DNA of 64,000 bases from Gemmatimonadota bacterium (lineage in GTDB: Bacteria; Gemmatimonadota; Gemmatimonadetes; Gemmatimonadales; Gemmatimonadaceae): NCBI GenBank assembly GCA_028287235.1, contig JAQBQB010000020.1, positions 186,001 through 250,000 of the forward strand, written 5' to 3'. The position numbers and the translations under genes were made by a program. Positions 26,527-28,090 of the stretch are shown piece by piece. The notes beneath the pieces are model-generated. The model searched no databases and had not been told where the DNA came from. It saw nothing but the letters and a program-made list of their open reading frames with translations. Positions within the stretch are counted from its first letter, which is position 1. Each line of letters opens with the position of its first letter.

Positions 26527-26901
26527 TCAAGCCGATCGTGAAACCGAGAAGGCATTTGGTACGTGCCGCACCCGGACCCGGTCTCCCTCGACCAGAATCC
26601 CCACGACATCGAAGCGATACGACTCGCTCGGCCGGCCGTGCCGGTCGATCCAAACGGAGGCGGAGCGCACTAACTCCTTCTGCTTGCTCCAGTTAACCGC
26701 TTCCACCGGATCGCCGAACCGCTGACCTCGCCTCGCCTTCACCTCGACGAACGCGACAGTACCTTCCCGCTCCATGACCAGATCGATATCGCGATGCCCG
26801 CTCCGGAAACGGCGTTGGACGACGCGCCATCCCTGCCGCCGGAGCCAGCGCTCCGCGATCCGCTCCCCCAACTCACCAAACGCCTGCCTGGCCGCTGACA
26901 T
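26527..26901 (-). CDS. yraN: UPF0102 (YraN) family endonuclease-like protein
   Basis: 124-aa restriction-endonuclease-fold protein. [31 protein letters not shown] and [11 protein letters not shown] carry the D-ExK pattern typical of the YraN family, whose function is unsettled. It lies upstream of recA. A TACTGT six nt before the ATG could be a -10 box. Its start is at the edge of the 421-bp non-coding gap that holds the large palindrome. Confidence 0.92.
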
Positions 26902-26983
26902 TGGAACACAGTATTTCGGCGCGCGCGGAGAGTGGCACCGAAGCGATTCGTGAAGGAGCGTTCGAGCGCGGCGGGCCGTTCTG

Positions 26984-27269
26984 CCGGGAGGATTCCGTCA
27001 TGTTGTTCGCGGATTTCGCGGAAATTGCGCGGAAACTGCCGGATCGTTCCTCGTGGCGCGAAGGGTCCAATCCCAACGAGCCCGGACGATCATTTTTTCT
27101 TTAGAACAGACGCTCAGGAAGCTTCGAGTGGCATCCTGAGCGGCTGTTCTCAAAGAAAATTTCGTCCGGGCTCGTTGCGCACGGAATCCTCAATGCCCAC
27201 GGAGCGATCCGGCAGTTTCCGCGGCCGTTTCCGCGAAATCCGCGAACAACATGACGGAGTCTTCCTCGT
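26984..27269. repeat. Large palindromic element, copy 1
   Basis: About 286 bp that fold end to end on themselves. Outer arms (about 26984-27050 and 27200-27269) are almost perfectly complementary over CATGACGGA, GTTCGCGGATTTCGCGGAAA and GCCGGATCG. The inner stem runs AACGAGCCCGGACGA (27075-27089) with its exact complement at 27162-27176, then AGAACAGACGCTCAGGA (27103-27119) against TCCTGAGCGGCTGTTCT (27134-27150), with a loop of about 14 nt. No protein frame fits. It fills the gap between two co-directional minus-strand genes and is related to the element at 51.1-51.4 kb. Confidence 0.92.
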
Positions 27270-27322
27270 AGAGCGGCGAGTCGCGCCGCAAGGCACAGAC
27301 GGGCAGGCCGATCGGCCAGTCG

Positions 27323-28090
27323 CTACCGGCTGATCCGCGTCAACGCGCTCACGAGTTGGGCGCCGCCAAGGGTCGGTACGTCGAGCGCGCTGCGAACCAC
27401 GATGGGATCGCTTTTCGTCACCCAGTAGAGACCGCGCGCGGGATCCGCGTGCACAGCGACGACCCAACAGTCGAACGTTCCCGCCGGAACGCGCACCCGG
27501 TCCTCGCCGATTACGGCGATGCGCGTCGGCAGCACGGCGTTGCTTCCGAGCGATACCGAGAGCGTGGTCGTCGAATCTTCCCACGCGGTGTGCAGCGGAT
27601 CGAGGCGCAGCACGGTCTCGAGCATCGCGCCGCTGATCAGCGACCCGCTCGGGACGTTGATGATCATCGACCGGCGCCCGACGGGAGACGAGACACCGCC
27701 GAACGCGGTGTCGGCGCGAAACTCGGCGGCCACGCGCGCGTCGCCCTGCGTGGCGCTCCAGTGGATCGGCCGCAGCGATGCGAGATCGGCGAACAACGAA
27801 TCGACCGCGTTGACGCCGTTGCCCGAGCGCGTCTCGAGCAGCAGCCACACGGGCGAACCGGCGTACATCGCCTGCGACACGGTCACCGTGCGCGTGCCGA
27901 CGATCGTCGTGCTGTTGTTGCGCTCGAGCGTGGTCTGATACTCGAACTGACCCGGCCGAAGTGCAGCGACGTCGAGGTGCGAGCGGCGCGCGAGTGAATC
28001 ACCCGCGGGCAATTGCGCGCCGAGTGCGCCGGCGACTGCGCCAGCGACGGCGGCGAGCAGCGCGGCGACGAGACTACGTGCGTGGGCCAC
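27323..28090 (-). CDS. Exported protein, possibly DUF3108-like
   Basis: 255 aa with an N-terminal signal peptide (LVAALLAAVAGAVAGALGAQ) and otherwise beta-rich sequence: FEYQTTLERNNSTTIVGTRT, YAGSPVWLLLETRSGNGVNA, LRPIHWSATQGDARVAAEFR, RIAVIGEDRVRVPAGTFDCW and KSDPIVVRSALDVPT. The pattern of paired strands ending in a VPAGTFDCW block recalls DUF3108/LolA-like envelope proteins, but this is a tentative match. The start overlaps the ftsK stop by 17 bp, so it is translated with ftsK. Confidence 0.7.
   Translation of the reverse strand: MAHARSLVAALLAAVAGAVAGALGAQLPAGDSLARRSHLDVAALRPGQFEYQTTLERNNSTTIVGTRTVTVSQAMYAGSPVWLLLETRSGNGVNAVDSLFADLASLRPIHWSATQGDARVAAEFRADTAFGGVSSPVGRRSMIINVPSGSLISGAMLETVLRLDPLHTAWEDSTTTLSVSLGSNAVLPTRIAVIGEDRVRVPAGTFDCWVVAVHADPARGLYWVTKSDPIVVRSALDVPTLGGAQLVSALTRISR

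Follow-up and report, generated by a model that had tools for sequence, protein, structure and literature searches.

A Gemmatimonadaceae family of dispersed long palindromes at gene 3' ends, with a conserved tip on stems that turn over in sequence but stay paired

Introduction

The closest described systems are extragenic repeats that form stem-loops. REP and REPIN sequences, with their RAYT (TnpA-REP) transposases, are extragenic, dispersed and multicopy hairpin-forming palindromes, built as units of 20-40 nt or as inverted doublets of about 100 bp; in REPINs, the spacer varies and its pairing is nevertheless kept through compensatory changes (PMC3116915, PMC2817692, PMC3733652). ERIC, NEMIS, YPAL and other families are intergenic stem-loop repeats of 100-170 bp (PMC1590033, PMC2267715). 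Bacterial stem-loops generally prefer 3' ends and convergent gaps, with 20-30% of them found in the 8-12% of space lying between convergent genes and about 10% in divergent gaps (PMC1590033).

Here, we analyzed a palindrome in a window of 64,000 nucleotides (positions 186,001 to 250,000 of contig JAQBQB010000020.1, assembly GCA_028287235.1) from a bacterium of the family Gemmatimonadaceae, whose genome is referred to as G000. Our results show that it belongs to a new Gemmatimonadaceae family of dispersed long palindromes at gene 3' ends, not described in the sources searched; the literature on Gemmatimonadetes palindromes, GTCATCC repeats and Gemmatimonas hairpins yielded nothing specific. Rather than a one-off oddity, the palindrome seems to be a structural repeat of gene ends that evolves fast. 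As in REP/REPIN systems, its relatives are extragenic, dispersed and multicopy, with about 32 intergenic copies in G000; however, each is a single palindrome of about 320 bp instead of a short unit or doublet, and it is the tip that is conserved and the base that varies, the reverse of a REPIN. The repeats of Petrillo 2006 and Cozzuto 2008 (PMC1590033, PMC2267715) likewise form intergenic families with a common stem-loop. Compared to ERIC, NEMIS and YPAL, the palindromes are twice as long, lean more strongly towards 3' ends (44-50% convergent, 3-6% divergent) and carry their conserved tip on stems that are replaced between species. The family behaves like a REP/ERIC-type stem-loop repeat, but it departs from defining REP/REPIN traits and shows no target duplication as expected of classical MITEs.

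Results

The window palindrome folds into one long hairpin

Based on its arms, its fold and the genome search, the whole palindromic element spans positions 26966-27286 (321 bp, no strand assigned). A sequence-only reading had placed it at 26984-27269 (about 286 bp); the palindrome is real, whereas its extent proved slightly longer. With 233 bits it is the strongest palindrome of the window, followed at 104 bits by a second family copy (L044, 51122-51429, no strand assigned) behind the 3' end of a minus-strand LptD_2 gene, and shuffled sequence reached at most 43 bits. Folding of the 331-nt stretch 26960-27290 gave a single hairpin with a predicted energy of -250.4 kcal/mol, compared to -127.9 ± 5.6 kcal/mol for 100 dinucleotide shuffles (z = -21.8), of which 0/100 were equally stable.

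Inverted arms at 26966-27024 and 27228-27286 are 85% complementary; further arms lie at 27028-27098 and 27153-27223, and the tip arms at 27094-27122 and 27131-27159. The perfect 15-bp inner stem noticed in the sequence-only reading, AACGAGCCCGGACGA, occupies 27075-27089 and pairs with 27162-27176. Each copy is built of three parts. A conserved apical hairpin of about 66 bp (TTTTCTTTGGAAC-nGACGCTCGGGA-nGC plus complement) is flanked by paired boxes (CGCAACGAGCCC / GGGCTCGTTGCG), and below these, degenerate CGCGGA-like units make up a long basal stem. In the window copy, the left arm of the basal stem (26966-27072) consists of a terminal GGCCGTTCTGCCGGGAGGATTCCGTC and degenerate CGCGGAnn-type repeats, followed by the left box CCAACGAGCCCGGACGA (27073-27089), which pairs with the right box TCGTCCGGGCTCGTTGCG (27162-27179); the right arm of the stem occupies 27180-27286. 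No strand was assigned to any of these parts. The conserved apical head lies at 27094-27159 (G000:C26:213094-213159) and scores 80.9 bits on the plus and 73.4 bits on the minus strand with the covariance model R2 described below.

The element sits, as the sequence-only reading held, in an intergenic gap, which measures 421 bp and separates two minus-strand genes. The gene for a DUF3108 exported protein (27323-28090) has its stop codon 36 nt from the element, and yraN (UPF0102; 26527-26901), the next gene downstream, starts 64 nt beyond it; recA follows past yraN and FtsK lies ahead of DUF3108. A 133-aa ORF runs mechanically across the element, where a composition-based gene caller made no call.

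About 32 copies with two main arm types in G000

Searching G000 with the element returned 63 matches of 70-80% identity; as both strands were matched, these correspond to about 32 places, most of them palindromic. Besides the multicopy nature of the palindrome, the sequence-only reading had overlooked that copies abut stop codons and that other long hairpins often stand at orthologous gene ends of related species. Type-A arms read GACTGGCCGCT..CGGGACGATTCCGTC, and type-B arms (GGCCACTAGGTCGGGACGATTGCCGGGG) occur in L040-L043; ends such as GACTGGCCGCT...CCGGGACGATTCCGTC are conserved within subfamilies. The sole A/B chimera, L028 (L028:1980-2285), unites one arm of each type; it is also the only G000 copy in a divergent gap and is a possible trace of two palindromes having undergone an inversion. 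Solo arm fragments were found close to L029 and L039, and the copies L050 and L051 lie inside unrelated arms.

Lack of SbcCD was rejected as a cause of palindrome tolerance, as G000 encodes an adjacent SbcC/SbcD-like pair (C2:109-113 kb), scoring below curated cut-offs.

Stem sequences turn over while pairing is retained

Stem pairing beyond the head was scored in 67 copies from 12 genomes. A copy's own arms paired with a mean score of 51.9; exchanging arms among copies of one genome lowered it to 30.1, and exchanging them across genomes to 5.8. Between genomes, stems beyond the tip and the GGGCTCGTTGCG box share no detectable sequence; the box is often retained beside the head, and the degenerate CGCGGA-like units farther out vary by genome, in G003 even from copy to copy. 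Copies in the relatives are mostly 200-400 bp long, and a few are nearly without pairing past the head (e.g. L241, L255, L266). These results show that base-pairing in the stems is conserved despite sequence turnover between genomes, and a conserved tip on stems that are rewritten yet paired is the distinctive trait of the family.

The proposal of a structured RNA made in the sequence-only reading agrees with pairing that outlasts the stem sequence, but finds no counterpart in a G-U excess. On the sense strand, 88 G-T mismatches stand against 85 A-C in the G000 arms, and 107 against 125 in 62 copies from 11 further genomes. The mismatches thus do not demonstrate selection at the RNA level, and pairing may be kept at the DNA level. 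An RNase III processing site, also proposed in the sequence-only reading, would make the element a transcribed and cleaved substrate of the NEMIS type.

Such symmetric mismatches are also what favors a purely mutational origin, in which template switching during replication copies one arm onto the other and pairing persists without selection. In line with this, a column-based permutation revealed a small within-copy pairing excess on the outer arms (0.919 vs 0.893, p = 0.0005), which may, however, stem from subfamily history. Arm identity in G000 barely differs within (0.784) and between copies (0.771), and each arm matches the arm of some other copy more closely, indicating that within-copy correction is weak and that arms were exchanged or diverged independently. 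As template switching would moreover leave the 3'-end position and the conserved head unexplained, we consider it a very improbable source of the family.

Copies lie directly behind stop codons

A gene caller based on codon usage, trained on a single 378-kb contig, placed 14 of the G000 copies in convergent, 17 in tandem and one in divergent gaps, whereas convergent gaps make up 10% and divergent gaps 36% of the intergenic length on that contig. Most of these copies start no more than about 45 nt from a stop codon; several convergent pairs have their gap occupied by the element from stop to stop. The distribution is similar in the 11 other genomes: of 62 copies, 31 are convergent, 24 tandem and 4 divergent, and 3 lie at contig edges. 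Their median distance to the nearest stop codon is 11 nt, and it is 50 nt or less in 46/55. Long palindromes of any sequence, sampled over about 1 Mb of G000 and two congeners, showed the same gene-end habit. The 3' placement can also come from purging of insertions into genes or promoters.

Intrinsic and hairpin-cluster terminators (PMC8355165) also stand directly behind stop codons, and between convergent genes they would act both ways. In contrast to intrinsic terminators (PMC8355165), the palindromes are far longer and their base has no U-run. A general role as intrinsic terminator was rejected, as a terminator-like stem precedes a T-run just ahead of the head in only 11/184 half-arms, and the window copy scored no higher than shuffles in the terminator test. 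A variant arm such as AATTCCCGGCCCAACGAGCCGGGAATTTTTTTC, found in L033, L039 and L046, makes a proper intrinsic terminator on its own, and in L027 and L034 a canonical intrinsic terminator just ahead of the element separates it from the stop codon. Searching Rfam gave no match at gathering level; the sub-threshold hits (35 bits or less vs a threshold of 100) were to hairpin models of animal miRNAs and were dismissed as chance matches to any hairpin. As the sequence-only reading had judged, the element matches neither a textbook terminator nor a tRNA, a REP or an IS end.

The conserved head is found in six genera of the Gemmatimonadaceae

BLAST with the element matched only its central part in congeners. 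The distribution is given for a covariance model of the 66-nt head (R2), whose structure was set by hand because RNAalifold's own head structure gave only 4 pairs. A search of related genomes by BLAST and covariance model had been suggested by the sequence-only reading, and it did recover relatives of the head: R2 matched 13/179 Gemmatimonadaceae genomes, comprising 6/6 of the genus plus five further genera, although some R2 training sequences are among the matches and their E-values are not independent. Across 298 genomes of the phylum, none matched outside the family Gemmatimonadaceae. Aligned to the family head, the heads of these congener relatives, like those of several hairpins from orthologous gene ends, do better than shuffled heads, and head pairs covary beyond controls (31 two-sided cells vs 21.0 ± 3.2 when shuffled and slid).

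When 85,000 genomes were scanned for exact occurrences of the box TCGTCCGGGCTCGTTGYG, matches outside the Gemmatimonadaceae were scattered and had no surrounding long hairpin, except for a weak one in L093. This locus, together with L095 and L113, belongs to the Planctomycetota MAG FK2.bin68, where three exact copies of the box CGCAACGAGCCCGGACGA occur without a long hairpin of the family type; they are possibly an unrelated repeat.

Other hairpins stand at some orthologous gene ends

In the DUF3108-yraN gap, the element is absent from four congeners, and G004 has an unrelated long hairpin there. G003 holds a GTCATCCC-type hairpin at the L049 site, and G004 shows no hairpin at the L044 site. 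Seven more sites were compared in G003, G004 and G005. Over these few comparisons, which partly rest on judgement by eye, some hairpin was seen in about 9/20 syntenic cases (by eye) and a palindrome of at least 60 bits in 6/20. Such palindromes occur in 4% of 3' gaps generally, a background that the orthologous ends clearly exceed; compared to G004 3' gaps of 80 bp or more, of which about 12% have one, they are modestly enriched. At the dnaB site, the hairpins of G000 and G004 have a common head and different arms, as would fit a hairpin that has long persisted there or a site that is targeted repeatedly. Many other orthologous gene ends lack a long hairpin, so the element is dispensable there.

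A head that inserts into, or recombines onto, pre-existing gene-end hairpins and borrows a different stem at each place would explain why head and box are retained although the stems vary from genome to genome and, within G003, from copy to copy. L050 and L051 in their unrelated arms, the type-A and type-B arms united in L028, and the presence of the GGGCTCGTTG box in GTCATCCC-type hairpins of G003 point the same way. On the other hand, head and stems spread jointly as a single unit in G000 and G004, and the orthologous sites gave no hairpin with matching stems that lacked the head, which makes this origin unlikely.

Hairpin repeats of the GTCATCC(C/T)GAGC type, mostly behind stops as well, were observed in G003 (L175, L179, L180, L187), G004 (L139, L140, L153) and G000 (L169, L170); two of the G003 copies hold the GGGCTCGTTG box of the studied family in their tip. 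G003 also contains palindromes of 386-479 bp (L178:5412-5890, L182:15240-15625) with arms of tandem CGAACGGCGCTGACTTCC-like units, resembling eukaryotic foldback elements.

Signs of mobility

With MITEs and foldback elements, the family shares its non-coding, multicopy and palindromic nature, its subfamilies and arms built of short direct repeats. The copies have conserved ends, candidates for the terminal inverted repeats of a MITE, and the search for a parent transposon, which covered Y1 transposases, found none. The RAYT/Y1 transposase (PF01797) is absent from G000, and a REP/RAYT origin was rejected on this ground; the single match among six congeners was found in G002 (L125, 46 bits). Target duplication was not seen either (mean repeat length 3.17 vs 3.06 ± 0.57 permuted), a null result that is weak as evidence since the ends are uncertain by about 10 nt and some anchors are misplaced. 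The suggestion of a non-autonomous mobile palindrome in the sequence-only reading was therefore right about a dispersed repeat, while neither target duplication nor a Y1/REP transposase of the genome came to its aid.

A purely selfish MITE- or REPIN-like palindrome would be moved by an unrecognised transposase and survive only behind stops, other insertions being harmful to the host. Dispersed copies with lineage-specific expansions are what it predicts, as are ends conserved in subfamilies, the solo arm fragments near L029 and L039, and the missing element in most congener gaps orthologous to the window site. Yet a transposase would be expected to preserve the ends, whereas it is the tip that is conserved across genera; replaced stems still pair, and in congeners the corresponding gene ends often bear other hairpins. 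Given also the results on target duplication and transposases, we regard a purely selfish element as possible but rather doubtful.

Discussion

The conserved things in this family are position, tip and pairing, and for this reason a two-way 3' boundary, either blocking read-through or protecting 3' ends, appears to be the most likely reading of its function, one in which our confidence is evenly balanced. Transcripts arriving from either side would fold into a very stable hairpin right behind the stop codon, and this hairpin could halt read-through or antisense transcription, or shield against 3' exonucleases. The spread of copies requires some route of mobility or conversion, and copies may spread inside a genome via an unrecognised transposase or via hairpin-mediated recombination between copies. 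The fuller account, in which 3'-end hairpins are kept vertically with position, tip and pairing conserved, their stems being rewritten and homogenised per genome (concerted evolution), and serve as two-way transcript boundaries, is put forward tentatively.

For annotators, the results mean that long gene-end palindromes in these genomes are a family and not assembly artefacts. The combination of near-perfect 300-bp palindromes and an SbcCD-like pair in one genome is useful for the study of palindrome stability. If the 3'-boundary reading is true, many genes of these bacteria would end in hairpins of 200-400 bp instead of short terminators, with the shape kept and the sequence swapped. How gene ends evolve, how hairpins are tolerated and how RNA 3' ends are processed would then become testable in a poorly studied phylum, whose termination has received little study.
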